From NCBI GenBank assembly GCA_002478865.1, contig DLJZ01000002.1:248001-312000 (forward strand): a DNA stretch of 64,000 nucleotides, written 5' to 3'. The DNA is from Hungatella sp. UBA7603. GTDB lineage: Bacteria > Bacillota > Clostridia > Lachnospirales > Lachnospiraceae. The position numbers and the translations under genes are program-made. A model generated the notes under the pieces. The model did no database searches, was not told the origin of the DNA, and saw nothing but the letters and a program-made list of their open reading frames with translations. Shown piece after piece: positions 28,562 through 39,285 of the stretch (position 1 is its first letter; every line of letters begins with the position of its first letter).

Positions 28562-28729
28562 ATGTCAAATTTCTCTAATAATAAAGATGATTCTTATCAA
28601 AATGGCTTAGCCATGGGCCTCTGCATGGGGTTGGTCTTCGGGGCAATTATTAATAATCTTGGAATTGGATTGGTATTTGGATTGGCTCTTGGTCTGCTTT
28701 ATGACAAGGGGTTCTTTAAGAAGCGGTAA
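28562..28729 (+). CDS. Small Gly-rich membrane protein (55 aa)
   Basis: A 55-codon frame from ATG 28562 to TAA 28729 behind AAGGGG. A polar start (MSNFSNNKDDSYQNGLAMG) leads into a hydrophobic, Gly-spaced stretch (GLVFGAIINNLGIGLVFGLA) and a short basic tail, KKR. The GxxxG-like spacing suggests a glycine-zipper helix hairpin in the membrane. The frame is supported by a degenerate second copy at 21947 sharing both coding and upstream sequence. Function unknown; no family recognised. Confidence 0.7.
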   Translation: MSNFSNNKDDSYQNGLAMGLCMGLVFGAIINNLGIGLVFGLALGLLYDKGFFKKR

Positions 28730-28847
28730 TCCGATATGTTTGACATCAACACGTTACTTTTGGCAGGTATGGATCGTTCCACATCTGCTTTTTTTGTATT
28801 CTAATCTCTTAAATTCCAGAAAAAGGATATCTTAGGACTGCCCTGTC

Positions 28848-28895
28848 ACTCTATTTTTATTGAAACATACTATAAAATAGAAATACGTATTTCTA
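28848..28895 (+). promoter_or_regulatory. Promoter candidate of the glycosylation island, sigma-K-like, with 18-bp palindrome
   Basis: No good housekeeping promoter is seen before 28920. Instead AC (28848-28849), a 16-nt spacer and CATACTATA (28866-28874) fit the sigma-K pattern AC-N16/17-CATAnnnTA known in Bacillus. A perfect 18-bp palindrome, TAGAAATACGTATTTCTA (28878-28895), lies at the expected start site and could bind a regulator. The sigma-K reading is an inference from a short motif. Confidence 0.4.
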
Positions 28896-28919
28896 ATGAT
28901 AATATGAGGGGGCGTTTAT

Positions 28920-29204
28920 ATGGCTAACTATAAACCTATTACAAAAACGATTCTTGCTACTGCCGCCGATTCCGGACAAGTGATTATTGCCAAGCTTTCT
29001 ACAACAAGCTGGGGGCTTCTGCTGCTTCGAGGTACTGCTGTTTTTAGCAATACCATTTTAAGAAGCGGCGCTGTTGCTATTTGGGAAAGCACAAATCCGA
29101 CAACGGCTGAACCTAATCTAGTGACCTTTACCGATGCCAATGCAACTTATGGTATTACAACCAGAGCTGGCGTTGCTCTTCGATTGAAATTTTATTCCAA
29201 ATAA
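28920..29204 (+). CDS. Hypothetical small protein, first gene of the glycosylation island
   Basis: 94 residues, not recognised. There is no signal peptide. It is rich in Thr, Ala and Ser, with alternating hydrophobic and polar residues suggesting beta-strands, and a YGITTRAGVALRLKF end. It starts behind GAGGGGG and is the first gene after the sigma-K-like promoter. The next gene, a beta-sandwich protein, follows after 61 nt. The Thr/Ser-rich surface and the neighbouring glycosyltransferase make it a candidate glycosylation substrate or structural protein. Confidence 0.7.
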   Translation: MANYKPITKTILATAADSGQVIIAKLSTTSWGLLLLRGTAVFSNTILRSGAVAIWESTNPTTAEPNLVTFTDANATYGITTRAGVALRLKFYSK

Positions 29205-29265
29205 ACACTTAGGGGTGTTCAGGGCGCTGTCCTTTGGGCACCCCTTACAAAGGAGGTCATGAACA

Positions 29266-29553
29266 ATGTCAGATATATGCTTTACAGGCTGTCAAATTAT
29301 TTGTTCTGAGATTGTTACCGCGGATGTAACACTTCCTGCTAACCCTTTTTTGTTTCTCACAGGCATCGTATACAGTCCAAAAGGCGAACCTCTACCTAAT
29401 GCAGCGATTGAAATCCGCATTCTTGATCCTGAGAAACCAAATAAGACGATTCCACTGGGAGTCACCTTCACTCTTTTAGACGGTACCTATGGAATCACGA
29501 TTCCCAACATTCCTGGCAGACAATATGAGCTTCTGGCATTTTCATCCATATAA
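29266..29553 (+). CDS. Small one-domain beta-sandwich protein 1 (carboxypeptidase-regulatory-like)
   Basis: 95 residues. After a Cys-containing start of about 30 residues comes one domain with the pattern LTGIVYSPKGEPLPNAAIEI ... LG ... DGTYGI ... YELLAF. This is the pattern of carboxypeptidase-regulatory-like (CarboxypepD_reg) beta-sandwiches. It has no signal peptide and no anchor. Three paralogues lie at 31540, 31863 and 32177, on the far side of the glycosyltransferase gene. Start ATG behind AAAGGAGG. Confidence 0.75.
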   Translation: MSDICFTGCQIICSEIVTADVTLPANPFLFLTGIVYSPKGEPLPNAAIEIRILDPEKPNKTIPLGVTFTLLDGTYGITIPNIPGRQYELLAFSSI

Positions 29554-29588
29554 AAAAAGCCCTTAAGGCGTCCTTTTTGGAGGATACA

Positions 29589-31319
29589 ATGAAAAAAGTA
29601 AAAACTTCAGATGGATTCTTCGTTACCCGCATAAAGAAAGAACGAGAATATTATTACCTGGCGGATCAGACTAACTATAAGAATGAAATAACAAATCTTC
29701 TAAACACATTGGAGGACCTTAAATTTGATTCCTTGATTTTTTTATTTGGCATAGATACAGGTGCTTATCTGCCAGAATTAAAAAAGAAGCTGTGCCAGAA
29801 AAACCATGTTTTCATTTTTGAGCCGAACAAAACAATACACAATAACATTACCATGGATCTTGGGGACAATATTAAGTTGGTGTATTATCAGGAAGATGTG
29901 GTGAAACAGATCTTTGAAGAGACCATTGATTTTAAGAACCTGAACAATATTTTTTTCTATTCGTTTGGAAACTACAGCACGCTTTATAAAAAAGAATATG
30001 ACCAGCTCATTGAACATCTGGATTGGACAATTATAAAATCGGCCTCCCAGGTGTCTTTGGCGAAGCGTTTTAAAAAGATATTTATTAAAAACATGATTGC
30101 CAATCTAAAGATAATTCCTGAGTCCACCCCCATTCACCGCTATCTGTTCACCAACACAGGGGTTCCTGCCATCGTAGTATCTGGAGGGGCTTCTCTTGAT
30201 AAGAACATGGAAGATATGAAGCGGTATAAAGATCTGGTAAAGAATTGTTTTGTCATCACTGGAAGCAGAACGGTGGACGCCCTGATTAAAAATGGTATTA
30301 TGCCTGATATGATTGTTTCCGTGGATCCGGTAAATGCCAATTTTGATATGATGAAGGATCATCTGGACCTTAAGGTGCCTCTGGCCTTTTATGAATACAG
30401 CAACCGCTACCTTTTAAAAAACTATCAAGGAGAAAAGATATTTATCTCCCTGTTACTTTCCCGTACCATAAAGGGAATGGAACATTTAAAAGCTGTCTAC
30501 TGCGGCGGCTCGGTCTCCCATGCCTGTGTTGACATCGCAAGTATGCTTGGCTGCTCTCCAATTCTTTTGACCGGGCAGGATCTGGCTTATACCCATGAAA
30601 AGCATCATGCAGACAGCGCTACCTTTTCTTATGACAGCACTTTGGATTACCGGCCTCAGACCTTTGTAAAAGATATCTACGGCAATCTGATCGGAACAAC
30701 CGTCACCCTTGATTATTTTAGAAAGAACCTGGAACTTTATATCAGCCAGTATAAAAACCAGGATCGAGTCCGTTTTTATAACTGCTCTTATGGAGCCGAG
30801 ATCGAGGGGGCACCTCATAAAGAACTGGGCGATATTCTTCTCCAAACTGATTTTTCTAAGAAAAAGATTCCATGCCTTCCAAGCCATGAGCTGACTTTGG
30901 ATGCAAAGGAGACCATTGATTCTCTTATGGAATTTTTAGAAGACTCTTTAATAAAAGCGGGTCAAGGGCTGGAGCTATGTGAGCTTATTCGTTTGGAAAA
31001 CAAGACAAAATCCCTGGTGGAAGTGGAGGAAGATGATATTGACCTTCAGCGCATCCTCTACATCCTGCAACTTGTAAACTCCTTTGAGAACAATCCTTAC
31101 AGCAGCTATTTGGGAGGCTACTTCAGTGAATTTCTCTACGAGATAAAGGAAAAGAACATTTCCATGCAGGCTAAGGATTATGACAAGTTAACTTCTGACC
31201 TCCAATACCAGGCCAGCTTCTTTCAGGAGTACTTTTTAAAGCTGCATGGGATCCTGTCCGAAGTAAGGGAAACAGCCAGTTCCACGGTATCAGAATTCTA
31301 TGAATCGCATATAGTTTAA
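29589..31319 (+). CDS. MptE/Maf-type protein, probable nonulosonic acid glycosyltransferase
   Basis: 576 residues from the ATG at 29589, 5 nt after GGAGG; a TTG 12 nt upstream overlaps that site and is rejected. The middle (about 170-420) matches the MptE-like DUF115 domain of Maf (motility-associated factor) proteins, with IVVSGGASLDKN, FVITGSRTVDALI and PDMIVSVDP. Maf proteins transfer pseudaminic or legionaminic acid onto flagellin Ser/Thr in the cytoplasm. Here a full legionaminic pathway follows, but no flagellar gene is near, and small leaderless proteins flank it, so these may be the acceptors. Confidence 0.82.
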   Translation: MKKVKTSDGFFVTRIKKEREYYYLADQTNYKNEITNLLNTLEDLKFDSLIFLFGIDTGAYLPELKKKLCQKNHVFIFEPNKTIHNNITMDLGDNIKLVYYQEDVVKQIFEETIDFKNLNNIFFYSFGNYSTLYKKEYDQLIEHLDWTIIKSASQVSLAKRFKKIFIKNMIANLKIIPESTPIHRYLFTNTGVPAIVVSGGASLDKNMEDMKRYKDLVKNCFVITGSRTVDALIKNGIMPDMIVSVDPVNANFDMMKDHLDLKVPLAFYEYSNRYLLKNYQGEKIFISLLLSRTIKGMEHLKAVYCGGSVSHACVDIASMLGCSPILLTGQDLAYTHEKHHADSATFSYDSTLDYRPQTFVKDIYGNLIGTTVTLDYFRKNLELYISQYKNQDRVRFYNCSYGAEIEGAPHKELGDILLQTDFSKKKIPCLPSHELTLDAKETIDSLMEFLEDSLIKAGQGLELCELIRLENKTKSLVEVEEDDIDLQRILYILQLVNSFENNPYSSYLGGYFSEFLYEIKEKNISMQAKDYDKLTSDLQYQASFFQEYFLKLHGILSEVRETASSTVSEFYESHIV

Positions 31320-31348
31320 TAAATCTGCTAGGAAGAAAGAGGTTTTTT

Positions 31349-31513
31349 ATGGATAGCGAAAATAAGAGCGATATCATTGACAGTCGTTACAAAGAAATTA
31401 AAATCAACAAAATGATCGTAAACGGCAAAGAGCAGGATAGCAATATTATTGATGGTGATGACACTAAGAACATTCAGGAGCTAAACGTAACGGTATACAC
31501 GCAAAACCAGTAA
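31349..31513 (+). CDS. Hypothetical acidic 54-aa protein in the island
   Basis: Frame of 54 codons from ATG 31349 to TAA 31511-31513, starting 29 nt after the glycosyltransferase stop behind a GGAAGAAAGAGG stretch. It is charged (Asp/Glu/Lys/Asn-rich), begins MDSENKSDIID and ends LNVTVYTQNQ, with no membrane helix and no Cys. The position fits co-transcription. It is not recognised, and the coding call rests on its place in the operon and its ribosome site. Confidence 0.6.
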   Translation: MDSENKSDIIDSRYKEIKINKMIVNGKEQDSNIIDGDDTKNIQELNVTVYTQNQ

Positions 31514-31539
31514 CCGGTAAATAGGGGGGGACATCTGAA

Positions 31540-31848
31540 ATGAGCGGTTTTAGAAATAATTCATTTCTAATCAGCGGTTCAAAGCTTCTGCCATGGAGAG
31601 AAAACCACTATAATTTTAAACTTTGCAGAAAGAACCACCAGATTATTAAGGGAACTATTTACAACCAGGACCAGACTCCTTGCGCCGGTGCAACGGTTTT
31701 AGTCACTCAGATTGATAATGAAAAACAAGGACGTATGTTGCTTGGCTTTGTAGTAACCGATAAGGCTGGACGTTATCTTTTCTCCCTTGAAGCAAATCCA
31801 AAGATGAAGTATGAACTGACAGTTTTTGCTCCCATAATTTCTAATTAA
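31540..31848 (+). CDS. Small one-domain beta-sandwich protein 2
   Basis: 102 residues. After about 35 residues a domain with IKGTIYNQDQTPCAGATVLV ... LLGFVVTDKAGRYLF ... KYELTVFAPI follows, the same pattern as proteins 1, 3 and 4. No signal peptide. The start MSGF is shared in form with the MSGY start of the next gene. It follows a run of G (GGGGGG) as ribosome site. Confidence 0.75.
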   Translation: MSGFRNNSFLISGSKLLPWRENHYNFKLCRKNHQIIKGTIYNQDQTPCAGATVLVTQIDNEKQGRMLLGFVVTDKAGRYLFSLEANPKMKYELTVFAPIISN

Positions 31849-31862
31849 AAGGAGGTCTTCTC

Positions 31863-32192
31863 TTGAGCGGCTATACAGAACTGATTATTCCGCCTGACAA
31901 ATTCAATAACTGTAACGTGGCTCAGGTTCTGATTTCCATGGAAGCCTCCTGTGAAGTATTGCTAACGGGCACTGTCTATAATACATGCTGTGAAGCCATT
32001 GAAGGGGCTGTGGTAAGGATAACGGCAGTCAATTCCCTATGGCAGAGAAATATCTTGGGTTATGTCATTACCAATCAGTTTGGTGAATTTGCTGTGGTGG
32101 TGGAGAAAACTTCTAAAATAGATTATCAGCTTGATATTTACGAACCAATCCTAAGAGATGAGGAAGGGACCAAGACATGGCATACGCAGTAA
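31863..32192 (+). CDS. Small one-domain beta-sandwich protein 3 (TTG start)
   Basis: 109 residues starting at TTG 31863, behind a strong AAAGGAGG (31848-31854). The start is supported by the MSGY opening, which parallels MSGF of the previous paralogue. One domain: LTGTVYNTCCEAIEGAVVRI ... NILGYVITNQFGEFAVVV ... YQLDIYEPIL. It carries a Cys pair. It overlaps the next gene by 16 nt. No signal peptide. Confidence 0.75.
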   Translation: MSGYTELIIPPDKFNNCNVAQVLISMEASCEVLLTGTVYNTCCEAIEGAVVRITAVNSLWQRNILGYVITNQFGEFAVVVEKTSKIDYQLDIYEPILRDEEGTKTWHTQ

Positions 32193-32428
32193 TCAAAGGT
32201 TTGGTACGAGATACCAACAAGGCACCGGTTCGAAAAGCCGTAGTCATACTGGAACGTCTGGTCCCTGTCTTTAATGAAGATCTACAGGAAGAAGATTTTT
32301 CCGGAGTCTATCTGGGTCATACTCTGACCAACCGATATGGGGAATTCTGCTTTCGGGTTTCCGACAGAACCAGCACATACCGAATCAAGGTATTTGACAA
32401 TGGTCATGAGGAAGGAGGGTTCCAATGA
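32177..32428 (+). CDS. Small one-domain beta-sandwich protein 4
   Basis: 83 residues that are almost wholly one domain: IKGLVRDTNKAPVRKAVVIL ... YLGHTLTNRYGEFCFRV ... YRIKVFDNG. It is the shortest of the four paralogues and lacks their N-terminal extension. It overlaps gene 3 by 16 nt and legB by 4 nt, so the structural proteins and the sugar genes are translated together. Confidence 0.75.
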   Translation: MAYAVIKGLVRDTNKAPVRKAVVILERLVPVFNEDLQEEDFSGVYLGHTLTNRYGEFCFRVSDRTSTYRIKVFDNGHEEGGFQ

Positions 32429-33405
32429 AAAAGGTGCTTGTCACAGGAGCCGATGGTTTTATTGGGAGCCATCTAACGGAAGAATTAGTTCTTAAGGGGT
32501 ACCAGGTCAAGGCATTTGCCTGCTACAATTCATTTCATCAATTTGGCTGGCTGGATACGCTGCCAACCCACATCAAAGATGAAATAGAAATCATCAGCGG
32601 AGACATCAGAGATCCAAACGGCGTAAGATCTGCTCTTTCCCTCGTGGAATCTGTATTTCACCTAGCTGCCTTAATTGCCATTCCATACAGTTATGAGTCA
32701 CCGGATTCTTATGTAGACACCAATATAAAAGGTACCTTAAACATCCTACAGGCCGCCAGAGACTTAGAAACAAAAAAGGTATTAATCACTTCTACTTCCG
32801 AAGTGTATGGAAGTGCAGACTATGTTCCTATCGATGAGGAGCATCCAAAGAAGGCCCAATCTCCATATGCTGCTACAAAAATCGGCGCAGATCAGCTAGC
32901 CCTATCCTTTTACCGCAGCTTCTCCCTGCCAGTTACCATAGTCCGTCCTTTTAATGCTTATGGGCCCAGGCAGTCTGACCGGGCGGTGATACCGACCATT
33001 ATCAGTCAGCTTCTGGCTGGAAATAAGGAGATCCATTTGGGAAGTCTGACACCCACCAGGGATTTTAATTACGTTAAAGACATCGCTAACGGCTTTATAG
33101 AGATTGAAGCATCTCCAAATACTATAGGTGAAGAAATAAATATAGCAAGCGGTATAGAGATCTCCATTGGCGATCTGGCAAAAGAGCTTATCAAGCAGAT
33201 TAATCCAGAGGCAGAGATTGTCTGCGAGGACCAGAGACTCCGCCCGAAGATGAGCGAAGTCACCAGGCTTCTTGGCTCCAATGCAAAGCTTACCAGGTTA
33301 ACTCATTGGAAACAGGAGTATTCCCTATCACTTGGCCTAAAAAACACCATCGAGTGGATTGAAAAGAACCAAAATCACTTTCGGACAGATCGATATAACA
33401 TCTAA
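32425..33405 (+). CDS. legB: NAD-dependent 4,6-dehydratase of legionaminic acid synthesis
   Basis: Extended short-chain dehydrogenase/reductase, 326 residues, with GADGFIGSHL (NAD site), TSTSEVYG (active-site Thr) and the SPYAATK YxxxK motif. LegB removes water from a nucleotide-GlcNAc to give the 4-keto-6-deoxy sugar, the first dedicated step of the legionaminic route. The assignment rests on adjacency to legC and the later pathway genes. It overlaps the last beta-sandwich gene by 4 nt. Confidence 0.87.
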   Translation: MKKVLVTGADGFIGSHLTEELVLKGYQVKAFACYNSFHQFGWLDTLPTHIKDEIEIISGDIRDPNGVRSALSLVESVFHLAALIAIPYSYESPDSYVDTNIKGTLNILQAARDLETKKVLITSTSEVYGSADYVPIDEEHPKKAQSPYAATKIGADQLALSFYRSFSLPVTIVRPFNAYGPRQSDRAVIPTIISQLLAGNKEIHLGSLTPTRDFNYVKDIANGFIEIEASPNTIGEEINIASGIEISIGDLAKELIKQINPEAEIVCEDQRLRPKMSEVTRLLGSNAKLTRLTHWKQEYSLSLGLKNTIEWIEKNQNHFRTDRYNI

Positions 33406-33425
33406 GGAAATAGGAAGGGAGTCAA

Positions 33426-34574
33426 ATGATACATTTATCTGTTCCTGTTTTAAAAGGAAATGAAAGAAACTATATGGACGATGCCATAGCGAATGGTTGG
33501 GTCTCAACCGCGGGAAGTTATGTAACCAGATTTGAAACGGAAATGGCAGCTTACTTAAAGGTACCAGCCACGGCTGCCCTGCAAAGCGGAACTGCTGCCC
33601 TGCACCTTTCCATGCTCCTTTCGGGCATTGAGAAAGACCATGAGGTCATTGTCCCCACGCTCACTTTTATAGCTGCTATTAATCCCATTGTGTATTTAGG
33701 TGCCCATCCAGTTTTCATGGACTGTGACGACACCCTGAACATGGATTGCGAAAAGCTTTCTAAGTTTTTGGAAACGGAATGTACGAAGACAAAAGAAGGA
33801 CTTTTAAACCGTTCCTCTGGTCAGATCATAAAAGCTGTTTTAGTCGTGCATGTCTTTGGAAACATGGCTGATATGGAGACGCTTCTTCGCCTATGCAGCC
33901 AGTATGATTTAAAACTCATTGAAGATGCCACCGAGGCACTTGGTACCAGATACACCAAAGGCAGTTTAAAAGGGAAATTTGCAGGTACCATAGGAGATTT
34001 TGGAGCGTATTCCTTTAATGGCAATAAAATCATCACCACTGGCGGAGGTGGAATGATAACCGCAAAGAGGGATGAGGATCTTAAAAAAGCGGTTTATCTT
34101 TCTACTCAGGCAAAGGATGATCCCTTTTCTTATGTTCACAATGAAATCGGCTATAACTACCGGATGACCAATATCCAAGCGGCTCTTGGTGTTGGACAGT
34201 TGGAATGTCTGGAAGATTATATTAATACAAAGACTTATAATTATAATTACTATAAGAGTTTATTAAATGACAGGACTGACGTTTCACTGCTCCCATTTTG
34301 TGATTGGGCGAGAAATAACCATTGGTTTTATTCCTTGTTGTTAAATAGTAAGAGCTTAGACAGAGATACTCTTATGTCCCTTTTGAGGAAATCCAAAATT
34401 GAAGTAAGGCCAATCTGGAAGCTGAATCATACTCAGGTTATGTATCAAAACTGTCAGACCTACAAAATAGAGAAAGCTCCTTTTTACCAGAGTCATATCA
34501 TAAATCTTCCATGCAGCGTAAACCTTTGTGAAGCTGACATGGATTTTGTTGCCAATGCCCTGAAACTAGTCTGA
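33426..34574 (+). CDS. legC: LegC-type PLP aminotransferase
   Basis: 382-residue DegT/DnrJ/EryC1 aminotransferase that would aminate the 4-keto sugar made by LegB. PLP lysine is in YSFNGNKIITTGGGGM; QSGTAALH and EDATEALGTRY are other family motifs. It lies 20 nt after legB and follows GGAAGGGAG. Length and motifs are normal for LegC. Confidence 0.9.
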   Translation: MIHLSVPVLKGNERNYMDDAIANGWVSTAGSYVTRFETEMAAYLKVPATAALQSGTAALHLSMLLSGIEKDHEVIVPTLTFIAAINPIVYLGAHPVFMDCDDTLNMDCEKLSKFLETECTKTKEGLLNRSSGQIIKAVLVVHVFGNMADMETLLRLCSQYDLKLIEDATEALGTRYTKGSLKGKFAGTIGDFGAYSFNGNKIITTGGGGMITAKRDEDLKKAVYLSTQAKDDPFSYVHNEIGYNYRMTNIQAALGVGQLECLEDYINTKTYNYNYYKSLLNDRTDVSLLPFCDWARNNHWFYSLLLNSKSLDRDTLMSLLRKSKIEVRPIWKLNHTQVMYQNCQTYKIEKAPFYQSHIINLPCSVNLCEADMDFVANALKLV

Positions 34575-34596
34575 CGCTGGAAGGAGGATGGCTTAC

Positions 34597-35643
34597 ATGG
34601 ATGTGAAGAAGTTCTTTATTTCACCAGACGTTTCCATCAGGGAAGCCATAAGGCAGTTGGATGAGACGGCAAAGAAACTTTTACTTGTGGTGGTGGACGG
34701 CAAGCTGGCCGGTGTAGTTACAGACGGTGATATTCGCAGGTGGATTTTAAAAAATCAGGATTTATCCGTGGCAATAAATTGTATTATGAACTCCTCTCCC
34801 ATTTCCATTACAAAAGCGGAAGTTGGTCAGGCATTAACTATCATGAAGGAGAAGGGAATCGAAGGTCTTCCACTTGTGGATGAAAAAAAGCAGGTTTTGG
34901 ATATTCTTTTCTGGAATGATCTGGGTTTTGGTGATGGAGCAAAACCAGTTAAAAAAGAAGTTCCTGTTGTAATTATGGCGGGAGGAAAAGGTTCCAGGCT
35001 CTATCCCTATACGAAAATCATACCAAAACCCCTAATCCCCATTGGCGATACCCCTATCGTGGAACGGATCATGAATCAGATGATATCTTATGGGTTTACG
35101 GACTTCTATCTTACGGTTAATTATCGGAAGGAACTGATTAAGGCATATTTTAACGATGATAATCGGTATCATCTAAACTTTGTGGAAGAAAAGGAGCCAC
35201 TTGGCACGGCAGGGGCTTTGACTTTATTGAAGAAACAAATAACTGGCAGTTTCTTTGTTAGTAATTGTGATATTTTAGTTGATATTAATTATGAAAAGCT
35301 GCTTTACCATCATACGAAAAATCAGAATCAGATTACGGTTATCACCGCTATGAAGAATTATGAAATTCCCTATGGAGTGGTTTCTCTTGATGATGAGGGG
35401 CACATTCAAGCTCTCAATGAGAAGCCAAATTATGAATTTCTGGTTAGTACCGGGCTATACGTTCTGGAACGAGATGTGTTAGACCAAATTCCGGAAGATA
35501 TGCCGTTTGATATGCCGGATTTAATACGCCTTTGTCTTAATAACGGGAATCAGGTAGGCGCCTATCCGGTCATGGACAGCACTTGGCTTGATATGGGGGA
35601 ATTCAGTGAGATGAAAAAGATGGCGGAGAGAATGAAGGTATGA
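34597..35643 (+). CDS. ptmE: CBS-domain sugar-phosphate nucleotidyltransferase (PtmE type)
   Basis: 348 residues. Residues 1-115 hold two CBS repeats (VTDGDIRRWIL; GIEGLPLVDE). From about 122 comes a nucleotidyltransferase with MAGGKGSRLYPYTKIIPKP. This architecture is that of Campylobacter PtmE, the glucosamine-1-phosphate guanylyltransferase that starts the GDP-sugar route to legionaminic acid. The ATG at 34597 is preferred, since GGAGG directly abuts the ATG at 34588. The CBS pair may sense a nucleotide. It overlaps the next gene by 4 nt. Confidence 0.83.
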   Translation: MDVKKFFISPDVSIREAIRQLDETAKKLLLVVVDGKLAGVVTDGDIRRWILKNQDLSVAINCIMNSSPISITKAEVGQALTIMKEKGIEGLPLVDEKKQVLDILFWNDLGFGDGAKPVKKEVPVVIMAGGKGSRLYPYTKIIPKPLIPIGDTPIVERIMNQMISYGFTDFYLTVNYRKELIKAYFNDDNRYHLNFVEEKEPLGTAGALTLLKKQITGSFFVSNCDILVDINYEKLLYHHTKNQNQITVITAMKNYEIPYGVVSLDDEGHIQALNEKPNYEFLVSTGLYVLERDVLDQIPEDMPFDMPDLIRLCLNNGNQVGAYPVMDSTWLDMGEFSEMKKMAERMKV

Positions 35644-36320
35644 AGAAGCTGGTTGTAATTGGCGGTGGGGGCCATGGAGAAAGCGTTATTGATTCCATCC
35701 GTTCAACAAAGGAATTTGATATCATTGGAATCCTGGATGAAGGAAAACGCGTTGGTACCAGCGTCTCTGGAATTTTGGTTCTTGGAGGAGACGTGCTTTT
35801 GCCAGAGCTTTTTAAACAGGGGATTTGCTACGGTGTCATTGCTGTAGGCAGCATAGGAAACCCACAGCTAAGGATTCGAATTTATGAAACACTAAAAAGT
35901 GCCGGGTTCATAATTCCTAACATTATAGATAAAAGTGCAGTTCTATCCCCTGATGTGGAGATGGGAGAAGGTAATTTTATTGGAAAAGGTGTGATCTTGG
36001 GTGCCGGTGTAAGGCTTGGAACTGGATGCATCATTAACACGGGCTCTATCCTAGAGCATGGCACTGTCATTGGGGATTTTTCTCACGTTGCCCCAGGCGC
36101 GGTCCTTTGTGGCAATGTCCGGGTGGGGGAACATGTCCACATTGGTGCAGGAAGTACGGTAATTCAGAATGTCGCCATTAAAAGCAACTCCATGATAGGA
36201 GCAGGCAGTCTGGTATTAAGGGATATTTCTTCAAATAAACTGGCTTATGGAAGCCCGGCAAGGGAGGTTGGAACTTATGAGCAGCGTCATGATTATAGCC
36301 GAAGCAGGGGTAAATCATAA
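35640..36320 (+). CDS. legH: Sugar N/O-acetyltransferase (PglD/NeuD family)
   Basis: 226 residues. An N-terminal Rossmann-like part (VVIGGGGHGESVIDSI) is followed by a left-handed beta-helix with hexapeptide repeats (GEGNFIGKGVILGAGVRLG, GEHVHIGAGSTVI). In this operon the expected step is acetyl transfer to the 4-amino group of the LegC product. Its end overlaps legI by 44 nt. Confidence 0.84.
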   Translation: MKKLVVIGGGGHGESVIDSIRSTKEFDIIGILDEGKRVGTSVSGILVLGGDVLLPELFKQGICYGVIAVGSIGNPQLRIRIYETLKSAGFIIPNIIDKSAVLSPDVEMGEGNFIGKGVILGAGVRLGTGCIINTGSILEHGTVIGDFSHVAPGAVLCGNVRVGEHVHIGAGSTVIQNVAIKSNSMIGAGSLVLRDISSNKLAYGSPAREVGTYEQRHDYSRSRGKS

Positions 36321-37272
36321 TGGAGATTTGATTACAGCCAAAAGGCTGATTGATGCAGCAAAAGAGGCAGGAGCCGATGCCGTAAAGTTTCAGACATATC
36401 GTGCTGACCTACTGGCCGCCCCCAGCGCTAAAAAAGCAGACTACCAGTTTGAAAATACGGGAAAGAATGGTTCTCAATATGAGATGTTAAAAGAGCTGGA
36501 ATTATCTTATGACAACTTCAAGGAGCTTTTTACGTATTGCAACGACCAAAATATCAGGTTTTTATCTTCTCCCTTTGATGAAATAAGTATGGAATATCTA
36601 GACCATCTCGGCGTGGAGATCATAAAGATTCCCTCTGGTGAGATTACAAACTATAGATATCTTAAGAAAGCTGCTGCCTTAAAAAAGCCAATCATTCTTT
36701 CCACTGGTATGTCCACAATTGAGGAAATTAAGGAAGCACTGAACCACCTTGACGAAGGAGGGCAGGAAATCACACTTCTCCACTGCTCCAGTGCCTATCC
36801 AACTCCCATGGAGGACGTTAATCTAAATGCCATGTTTCACTTAAAAAAAGCCTTTCAAAAAAAAGTAGGCTATTCTGATCATACCATGGGTATTGAGGTT
36901 GCTGTTGCCGCAACTGCCCTGGGCGCATGTGTCATTGAAAAACACATCACCCTTGATAAGACCATGGCTGGCCCTGACCACAAGCTGAGTCTGGAGCCAA
37001 AGGAATTTAAACTTATGGTAAACAGCATTCGAAACATCGAAACAGCCATGGGAACTGGAAGAAAGGCACCGTCGACGGAGGAATTAAAAAACAGGGACTA
37101 TGTAAGAAAGTTTCTGGTAGCCGCTAAGGAGATTAAAAAGGGGGATTTATTTACTATGGATAATTTATGTGCCAAACGCTGTTCTCCTGGAATCTCTCCC
37201 ATGAGGCTTGTATCTATGGTTGGAACACCATCTAACAGGGATTATAAGACCGATGAGAGGATTGAAACATGA
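36277..37272 (+). CDS. legI: N-acetylneuraminate/legionaminate synthase
   Basis: 331 residues from the ATG at 36277 (GGGAGG 9 nt upstream); an ATG at 36247 lies inside the acetyltransferase gene with no ribosome site. The TIM barrel opens IIAEAGVNHNGD and the C-terminal part (about residues 270-331) is an antifreeze-like SAF domain. It condenses a hexose (2,4-diacetamido-2,4,6-trideoxymannose) with phosphoenolpyruvate. Overlaps legG by 4 nt. Confidence 0.92.
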   Translation: MSSVMIIAEAGVNHNGDLITAKRLIDAAKEAGADAVKFQTYRADLLAAPSAKKADYQFENTGKNGSQYEMLKELELSYDNFKELFTYCNDQNIRFLSSPFDEISMEYLDHLGVEIIKIPSGEITNYRYLKKAAALKKPIILSTGMSTIEEIKEALNHLDEGGQEITLLHCSSAYPTPMEDVNLNAMFHLKKAFQKKVGYSDHTMGIEVAVAATALGACVIEKHITLDKTMAGPDHKLSLEPKEFKLMVNSIRNIETAMGTGRKAPSTEELKNRDYVRKFLVAAKEIKKGDLFTMDNLCAKRCSPGISPMRLVSMVGTPSNRDYKTDERIET

Positions 37273-38429
37273 TACGCTTATGTGTGGTAACAGGCAGCCG
37301 GGCAGAATACGGCCTATTGCTTCCAGTGATCCGCAGAGTTATGGCTGATCCTGATTTCAAGCTTTTGTTGGTGGTAACAGGTGCTCATATGGATTACCGA
37401 TTAGGAGCGGATTACCGGGAAATGGAGCAAGATGGAGTGACCATTGATGAAACGGTGGAGATGAATCTGGCAAGCGACTCTTCCTACGGAATCTGTCAAT
37501 CCATGGGACTAGAGCTAATTGGAATTTCCAAAGCTTATGAACGGTTAAAACCAGACATGATACTTCTTTTAGGGGACCGTTATGAGATTTTTATAGCGGC
37601 TAGTGCTGCTAGTATCTGTAACATTCCCATTGCTCATATCCACGGCGGGGAACTGACTAGAGGGGCTTATGATGACTGTATGAGGCATAGCATTACAAAG
37701 ATGAGCTATCTTCATTTTACCAGCACCATGGAATATAGAAAAAGAGTCATACAACTTGGGGAATCACCTGACCGGGTATTTCACGTAGGGGCCTTGGGTG
37801 TGGAGAGGTTAAAAAAACTATCCTTGCTGTCTCGAAAAGAGCTGGAAGAATCTTTAAACTTATCTCTTGGCTCTTTATTGGCTCTGGTCACCTATCATCC
37901 TGCCACGTTGGAGTCAGCAGATATTGAGGAACAGGTGGAACCGCTTTTAAAGGTTTTGGATTCCCTTCCTGAATTATTTGCTGTATTTACGGGAAGCAAT
38001 TCGGATACTGGAGGGAGCAAGGTCAATGAAATGGTGGCTGATTATGCAAAACTAAACCCTCATCGGGCGGCATTTTACAGTTCTCTAGGTTCCCTTCGCT
38101 ATCTAAGCCTGATGAGCCAGTGCTCTATGGTTATTGGGAATTCCTCCAGTGGTATTATAGAAGCACCCAGTCTAAAGGTGCCAACGGTAAATATCGGAAC
38201 CAGACAAAAGGGCCGAATCATGGCTGATTCTGTTATAAACTGTGATACTTCTTATGATAGCATTCTCTCAGCCATTCTTAAGGCGAGGGATTTTAACTGG
38301 AAGGACTGCTCAACTTTAAATCCCTATGACAGTCCTGACACGAGTAAAAAGATTCTAGGCTTTATTAAGCAGGCGGTTCAGAGTGGAATTTGCCTGGAGA
38401 AAGATTTTTATGATATTGATTGGAGTTAA
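37269..38429 (+). CDS. legG: Hydrolysing nucleotide-sugar 2-epimerase (NeuC/LegG type)
   Basis: 386-residue UDP-GlcNAc 2-epimerase fold protein with TGSRAEYGLL at the start, LLGDRYEIF and GNSSSGIIEAP. LegG converts the nucleotide diacetamido-trideoxyglucose into free 2,4-diacetamido-2,4,6-trideoxymannose. Its presence points to legionaminic rather than pseudaminic acid, which uses PseG instead. Its start lies in the legI stop. Confidence 0.9.
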   Translation: MIRLCVVTGSRAEYGLLLPVIRRVMADPDFKLLLVVTGAHMDYRLGADYREMEQDGVTIDETVEMNLASDSSYGICQSMGLELIGISKAYERLKPDMILLLGDRYEIFIAASAASICNIPIAHIHGGELTRGAYDDCMRHSITKMSYLHFTSTMEYRKRVIQLGESPDRVFHVGALGVERLKKLSLLSRKELEESLNLSLGSLLALVTYHPATLESADIEEQVEPLLKVLDSLPELFAVFTGSNSDTGGSKVNEMVADYAKLNPHRAAFYSSLGSLRYLSLMSQCSMVIGNSSSGIIEAPSLKVPTVNIGTRQKGRIMADSVINCDTSYDSILSAILKARDFNWKDCSTLNPYDSPDTSKKILGFIKQAVQSGICLEKDFYDIDWS

Positions 38430-38431
38430 TC

Positions 38432-39151
38432 ATGTATCTGGACAAACGATTTCTTGCACTTATACCAGCCAGAAGCGGATCCAAAGGGCTTCCACATAAG
38501 AATATAAAAGAAATTAATCATAAGCCATTACTGGCATATACCATTGAGGCATGTAAGATGGCGGGGTTCTTTGATGATATTATTGTTTCTACGGATTCGG
38601 AGTTATATCGGGAAATAGCTCTTTATTGGGGGGCTTCAGTGCCATTTTTAAGACCAGCAGAGCTTTCTAAAGATAACACAGCTACAATGGATGTCATTAG
38701 CCACGCACTGGAGGAGATGACCACACTTGGTAAAACATACGATTATATTATGCTGCTCCAGCCTACCTCTCCACTTAGAAATGCAAGACATTTAAAAGAA
38801 AGCGCAGCCCGACTGTTTGAATCCCAGGCCGACTCTGTTGTTAGTGTCTGTCCCTTTGACTGTAACTGCTATTTGTCTGTACAGCTTATGGATTCCGGTG
38901 AAATTCTGATTCCTTCTCAACATGAGAAACAAATTAGAAGGCAGGATGTTTCTTCTGGCTATCGGCTAAACGGTGCTATTTATCTCACTTCTGTACCTTT
39001 TTTTTTGAAGTATAGGAATTTTTATGCTGGAGTGACCTATCCTTATTTTATGGACCCCCTTCATTCCATTGATATTGATGAGGAATATCAATTTTATATC
39101 GCGCAACTGCTTTTAAATGATGGGTTTAGAGATACATCTGATGAGGTATAG
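38432..39151 (+). CDS. legF: CMP-legionaminic acid synthetase
   Basis: 239 residues from ATG 38432, chosen over the TTG at 38420. Cytidylyltransferase with ALIPARSGSKGLPHKNI, the CTP-binding loop of NeuA-type enzymes, and LQPTSPLRN. It makes the CMP-sugar donor for the glycosyltransferase encoded at 29589. It is the last gene of the island; a terminator follows after about 100 nt. Confidence 0.9.
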   Translation: MYLDKRFLALIPARSGSKGLPHKNIKEINHKPLLAYTIEACKMAGFFDDIIVSTDSELYREIALYWGASVPFLRPAELSKDNTATMDVISHALEEMTTLGKTYDYIMLLQPTSPLRNARHLKESAARLFESQADSVVSVCPFDCNCYLSVQLMDSGEILIPSQHEKQIRRQDVSSGYRLNGAIYLTSVPFFLKYRNFYAGVTYPYFMDPLHSIDIDEEYQFYIAQLLLNDGFRDTSDEV

Positions 39152-39248
39152 GAAGTATGTGTATTAGAGACTATTTGTGAGAACAACGTCCCGGAGATTT
39201 TTAAATCTTATCCTTTTATATATAATCACACCTATTATAAACAATAAA

Positions 39249-39285
39249 AAACGACTGACATTGAATTGCAGATAGTCAGTCGTTT
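39249..39285 (+). terminator. Terminator of the glycosylation island
   Basis: 11-bp stem AAACGACTGAC / GTCAGTCGTTT with a 15-nt loop, followed by CGCGTTTAATTT. It lies between the island and a minus-strand gene and may act in both directions. Confidence 0.65.

Follow-up and report, generated by a model that had tools for sequence, protein, structure and literature searches.

Flagellar Maf/nonulosonic acid (NulO) islands, such as those of Aeromonas, Campylobacter and Clostridium, combine a PF01973-type Maf glycosyltransferase with genes for CMP-legionaminic acid (CMP-Leg) or CMP-pseudaminic acid (CMP-Pse), and the sugar is transferred in the cytoplasm. To our knowledge, Mafs are known from flagellin. 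A Maf is the putative legionaminyl transferase for Campylobacter jejuni flagellin (PMC9298399). Legionaminic acid is also present on the spore crust of Bacillus subtilis, for which neither the transferase nor the acceptor had been identified in 2020 (PMC7439481). The mother cell synthesises the crust glycans, which become attached to proteins including CgeA, a spore glycoprotein that forms the base for surface polysaccharide assembly (PMC11708026). For the ribbon appendages of Clostridium taeniosporum (P29a, P29b and GP85), sigma-K promoters have been predicted, and one of the components is a glycoprotein (PMC5749712). Here we describe a 14-gene operon in a 64,000-nucleotide stretch of Hungatella sp. 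UBA7603 (the window; positions 248001–312000 of contig C18 of genome G000, an assembly of 3.1 Mb that is 67.9% complete) that is probably a sporulation-phase system for O-glycosylating small spore-surface proteins with NulOs.

The operon shares with the flagellar islands a PF01973 Maf, CMP-NulO genes and, presumably, cytoplasmic transfer, but differs from them in having no flagellin nearby, a Maf from a separate clade, small beta-domain proteins instead, and a sigma-K-type promoter. With the B. subtilis sps/cge crust glycosylation system it would share the production of legionaminic acid in sporulation for the spore surface, the small glycoprotein CgeA being the analogue of its small proteins. 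No Maf is described for sps/cge in the text available, whereas here transferase, sugar genes and candidate acceptors lie in one operon. C. taeniosporum carries a Maf of the operon clade (P0211), but its appendage proteins are larger, with collagen-like or DUF11 parts. Literature searches on Maf and spore glycosylation returned no text, among the portions available, that names a spore-linked Maf.

All 14 genes were located as plus-strand open reading frames (ORFs) packed at 28920–39151, confirming the run described in the first-pass annotation of this DNA. Their order is as follows:

28920–29204, plus strand: s94, a 94-residue Ser/Thr-rich small protein with a predicted beta domain from residue 33, the proposed main acceptor
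29266–29553, plus strand: s95, a 95-residue CarboxypepD/transthyretin (TTR)-like small protein (weak profile match)
29589–31319, plus strand: maf, a 576-residue Maf-type (MptE-like, PF01973) glycosyltransferase of a non-flagellar clade (Pfam, tree, neighbourhoods)
31349–31513, plus strand: s54, a 54-residue acidic small protein (conserved order, selection)
31540–31848, plus strand: s102, a CarboxypepD/TTR-like small protein (weak profile match and structure model)
31863–32192, plus strand: s109, a CarboxypepD/TTR-like small protein (weak profile match)
32177–32428, plus strand: s83, a CarboxypepD/TTR-like small protein (weak profile match)
32425–33405, plus strand: legB, NAD-dependent 4,6-dehydratase (TIGR04180, 490 bits against a cut-off of 475)
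33426–34574, plus strand: legC, aminotransferase (TIGR04181, 461 against 420 bits)
34588–35643, plus strand: PtmE-like CBS and nucleotidyltransferase gene (PF00483 and PF00571 above cut-off)
35640–36320, plus strand: neuD/legH, LegH/NeuD-type acetyltransferase (TIGR03570, 210 against 160.8 bits)
36247–37272, plus strand: neuB/legI, LegI/NeuB-type synthase (TIGR03569, 467 against 400 bits; ORF as listed, the true start may be later)
37269–38429, plus strand: neuC/legG, LegG/NeuC-type hydrolysing 2-epimerase (TIGR03568, 439 against 236 bits)
38420–39151, plus strand: neuA/legF, LegF/NeuA-type CMP-sugar synthetase (best match TIGR03584 (PseF), 181 bits, below the cut-off of 205.7)

This order is identical in all 20 other same-genus loci that have enough contig, one of which (L049) has broken frames; two further loci are interrupted by contig ends. 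The small ORFs are under purifying selection, with dN/dS values of 0.02–0.33 in 15 of 18 comparisons with three loci (those 15 in which dS was computable). Because of these values and the order kept in related loci, we regard all six as real genes. None of the six has a hydrophobic leader as judged by eye, in agreement with their original description as lacking signal peptides.

The neighbourhoods of operon-type Mafs set them apart from flagellar ones. Flagellin is adjacent at none of 28 operon-type loci and the small proteins are present at all 28, three of which (L008, L052 and L121) are short contigs of 3–10 kb. By contrast, around 20 other Mafs, high scorers selected from the genome searches and not drawn at random, flagellin occurs at 15 loci and the small proteins at none. 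The operon thus lacks the adjacent flagellin gene that marks a flagellar glycosylation island. The first-pass annotation had proposed a self-contained, non-flagellar Maf/NulO module and suggested looking for the same set beside flagellin in relatives; that search was negative, and this part of the proposal is supported.

The Maf assignment itself is based on PF01973 (MptE-like/DUF115), which matches with E 1.7e-41 (142 bits against a cut-off of 34.6), in line with the initial MptE/Maf-type call. The solved structure 5mu5_A, which we take to be a Magnetospirillum Maf, matches weakly (E 1.9e-4) and over 61 positions only. The closest named relative found is Lacrimispora algidixylanolytica (Maf 92% identical), so the genus is here taken as Lacrimispora. 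In a midpoint-rooted tree of 46 sequences (44 different), including 12 proteins chosen from 120 listed, operon Mafs form a separate clade of 24 rows (22 different) with support of 100/100. Its 12 extra members come from Clostridium, Lachnotalea, [Clostridium] fimetarium and Romboutsia, and the C. taeniosporum Maf P0211 falls within it. CMP-NulO genes adjoin maf, and the enzyme would transfer a nonulosonic acid from the CMP-sugar.

Within the genus, the Maf is present in 23 of 25 genomes, the window's included, and is missing from G017 and G022; outside it, in a 99-genome set, matches reach at best E 1.3e-47 and occur in 13 genomes. Locus L120 keeps the full gene order and L121 does likewise up to its contig end, L122 and L123 keep the small proteins, Maf and PtmE-like gene with the sugar genes rearranged, and in L124 s102, s95, s94 and Maf were identified by best hit. 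L122–L124 belong to other families, as do the Clostridium and Romboutsia Mafs, so the set is not limited to the Lachnospiraceae, in which a search was first suggested. Of 391 genomes of the class, five have small-protein matches at E ≤ 1e-20 (25 do at E ≤ 0.001), and an operon-type Maf, scoring at least 903 bits, is found in the same five. The next Maf, at 391 bits in G701, adjoins flagellin (locus L190). Among 398 genomes of the phylum, only G000 has an operon-type Maf, the next match scoring 261 bits. Lone frames of about 110–210 residues that weakly match the small-protein profile occur in other clostridial families (L105–L119, for example L125–L129); no Maf lies beside them in five stretches inspected from this group.

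LegB and LegC score above curated cut-offs and are accompanied by NeuB/C/D-type partners, which points to a legionaminic pathway. Five of the seven genes first assigned to such a pathway (LegB, LegC, NeuD, NeuB and NeuC) exceed NCBIfam cut-offs, whereas neither the cytidylyltransferase nor the PtmE-like nucleotidyltransferase does. The window's genome contains one further NeuB-family match, which is weak (E 1.2e-7). In L124, PseB, PseC, PseG and PseI are above cut-off, PseH is the best match yet below cut-off, and the cytidylyltransferase matches only KdsB-type models, below cut-off; judged by these profiles, L124 combines the same Maf and small proteins with a pathway of pseudaminic type. Legionaminic acid, the sugar initially named, therefore stands for the operon in the window but not as a fixed sugar of the system. 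The pseudaminic version also has a 564-residue protein (L124 9763–11457; Big_2 and weak beta-helix matches) between its small-protein genes.

Five of the six small proteins appear, from profiles and models, to be single TTR-like (transthyretin/CarboxypepD-type) domains. The CarboxypepD_reg matches of s95, s102, s109 and s83 are weak, none reaching the PF13620 (CarboxypepD_reg/TTR-like) gathering score of 32.3 (best s102, 27.1 bits). s94 has no match in the Pfam scan, although PF13620 is reached at E ≤ 1 by 9 of the 36 sequences in its alignment (best 0.0028). A profile comparison aligns s94 with the other small proteins (probability 95.3, E 2e-8). A five-strand domain is predicted for s102 (pLDDT 83, pTM 0.61), and in the s94 model the strands follow each other in the same way (pLDDT 81, pTM 0.58); fold matches are weak. 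An N-terminal tail of about 30 residues is present on four of the five TTR-like proteins and absent from s83. No match to DUF3992, presumably the domain of endospore appendages (ENA), was found at E ≤ 1 in a Pfam scan of eight window proteins. The Ser plus Thr content is 23.4% in s94 and 10–15% in the remaining five. Because s94 is the first gene, the most conserved of the six and 23% Ser/Thr, it is the most likely main acceptor. A stem-loop follows its gene:

29211–29245, plus strand: stem-loop in the s94–s95 intergenic region, with a possible role in mRNA processing or stability (folding)

All 22 genus rows folded form a stem here, with z from −1.7 to −5.8 against mononucleotide shuffles; in the window, z is −1.6 with dinucleotide shuffles, 16 of 200 of which are equally good. 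The stem-loop might provide extra s94 mRNA. In one subgroup, L042–L048, the stem carries an insert of about 100 nucleotides that makes it a long hairpin.

Two conserved elements precede s94:

28846–28874, plus strand: sigma-K-type promoter, TCAC, 16 bases, CATACTATA (cross-species footprint)
28879–28894, no strand: perfect palindrome AGAAATACGTATTTCT, candidate operator, at the expected transcription start

TCAC-N16-CATANNNTA is found upstream of s94 in 22 of 22 rows, with 16-base spacers that diverge into 11 clusters less than 75% identical. It is this cross-species footprint, not the promoter word, that constitutes the evidence. The sigma-K consensus has been published as [a/c]AC[a/c]-N16-CATA-N3-TA (PMC5749712), and a C. 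difficile sigma-K site has AC and CATATAAT boxes (PMC3789822). L120–L123 have AC-N15..17-CATANNNTA words 48–127 bases before s94, and a sigma-70 scan of the window gave no sites above chance (27 against 28.3). We infer that the operon is transcribed by sigma-K. All 16 palindrome bases are kept in 21 of 22 rows, and in all 22 a 14-bp core starts 14 bases downstream of where the −10 box begins. This core occurs once in 22 of the 25 genus genomes and twice in G001, at the operon start where checked, and is absent from both genus genomes that lack the operon (G017 and G022).

The downstream flank has one candidate element:

39250–39284, no strand: 10-bp stem, terminator candidate (folding)

Its A/T tail, by eye, suits the converging minus-strand genes better, and it is not among the calls of a terminator scan of the window, whose total is below chance (6 against 9.3). 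Of the promoter and terminator originally marked, the first is thus reinforced by the cross-species footprint and the second is weak. The conserved sigma-K-type promoter likewise favours the earlier guess of mother-cell expression, for which sigma-K use itself is only inferred. Directly upstream of the operon, a 55-residue hydrophobic ORF (28562–28729) is present in 4 of 22 other loci searched, the closest ones, with dN/dS below 0.1 in two comparisons.

Of ten genomes tested for SpoIVA, nine have it and the incomplete G000 does not; the operon is present in seven of these nine and absent from two. As a separate observation, sigK is split in G024 (L196, C1:2134200–2139800), its halves lying about 4.5 kb apart as in a skin element; the intervening DNA carries two ORFs, identified by eye as serine-recombinase-like (556 residues) and alpha-galactosidase-like. 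In 19 of the 25 genus genomes both halves share a contig and are separated by 3–12 kb, whereas a 2013 paper states that C. difficile alone among clostridia has a sigK skin element (PMC3789822).

The combination of a NulO pathway, a Maf, small proteins and a sporulation-like switch suggests that the operon probably sugar-coats spores. Late in sporulation, the mother cell would transcribe it from the sigma-K-type promoter, and LegB, LegC, NeuD-type LegH, LegG, LegI, LegF and the PtmE-like enzyme would produce CMP-legionaminic acid in the mother-cell cytoplasm. Maf would then move legionaminic acid onto Ser/Thr of the co-made leaderless small proteins, where the related single-domain proteins s95, s102, s109 and s83 may co-assemble with s94 or also be modified. 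The glycosylated proteins would be deposited on the spore as an acidic, hydrophilic glycoprotein layer or appendage; since the forespore lies inside the mother cell, no export would be needed. The broader proposal, that a separate non-flagellar Maf lineage in clostridial mother cells puts interchangeable NulOs on transthyretin-like subunits to form a spore coat or fibre, we judge about evenly balanced between true and false.

It is quite unlikely that this Maf glycosylates flagellin, with the small proteins as unrelated passengers or accessory factors. In the genus, 24 of the 25 genomes do have a flagellin-type match at E ≤ 1e-30 (G005 has a weak match only); the one in the window's genome shares the operon's contig, about 63 kb beyond the operon, and a PF01973 search of this 67.9%-complete assembly found no second Maf. 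In addition, for C. taeniosporum, C. cellulovorans and C. gasigenes, a 2026 survey reads Maf and CMP-Leg loci that lie away from the flagellar region as flagellar, for two of the three species also on the basis of chemotaxis neighbours (PMC13317340); the C. taeniosporum Maf P0211, which may or may not come from the surveyed locus, belongs to the operon-type clade. Yet flagellin is near none of the 28 loci and the small proteins are near all, the Maf clade is separate, the promoter is of mother-cell type, and G017 and G022 have flagellin without the operon. Moreover, in G007, G016 and G002 a second full NeuB lies 11–14 kb from the flagellin gene, which suggests a separate flagellar NulO supply in these genomes.

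It seems rather unlikely that the mother cell uses Maf and the NulO to decorate other spore proteins or a glycan, with the small beta-domain proteins serving not as acceptors but as scaffold, chaperones or sugar-binding parts, as Mafs elsewhere adjoin their known substrate flagellin (15 of 20) and the constant neighbours here are the small proteins, of which s94 is unusually Ser/Thr-rich. Very improbable is a vegetative glycoprotein system, cytoplasmic or exported by a non-classical route, that has no link to spores and whose promoter likeness is coincidental: the operon contains no sporulation gene, the promoter word alone is not rare and the start-site palindrome hints at a dedicated regulator, but both promoter boxes are fixed around a diverging spacer in 22 of 22 rows, and every tested operon genome besides G000 has SpoIVA, although so do the two without the operon.

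Several points weigh against a sporulation-phase glycosylation system. The spore and glycosylation claims are drawn from sequence comparisons. G017 and G022 have SpoIVA as well as flagellin and lack the operon, and in the window's own assembly (68% complete) SpoIVA is missing and the sigma match is weak (E 2.4e-17). The operon site is of the AC-N16-CATA form, with spacing one base shorter than in the printed sigma-K consensus; the printed spacing gives one match in the window, elsewhere than at the operon, against 1.86 expected. In the complete genome G024, the promoter word occurs 14 times and its reversed control 9 times. An ORF with a ribosome site follows within 300 bases at only 6 of the 14 (these six include the operon's own and one before a Cys/Asn-rich small protein), so the word alone is weak evidence. 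Such words are not unique in the AT-rich loci of L120–L123, specifically in L121 and L123, and no clear sigma-K-like word was found before the first gene of L124. Finally, L120–L124 were found through the small proteins, so co-occurrence there is partly by choice; the 391-genome survey is a fairer test, yet its Maf profile includes the Mafs of L120–L124 and three candidates per genome were scored.

If the operon does act in sporulation, it would supply, in clostridia, a transferase and an acceptor of the kind missing from the Bacillus spore-legionaminate story: a sporulation-tied Maf would be a named transferase for spore NulOs, with candidate acceptors beside it. Some loci now read as flagellar would need reassigning, and the cytoplasmic Maf glycosylation route would have been re-used for a second surface. 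As sialic-acid-like sugars alter adhesion and recognition, this would also yield a testable prediction for the spore surface of clostridia that are common in soil and gut.

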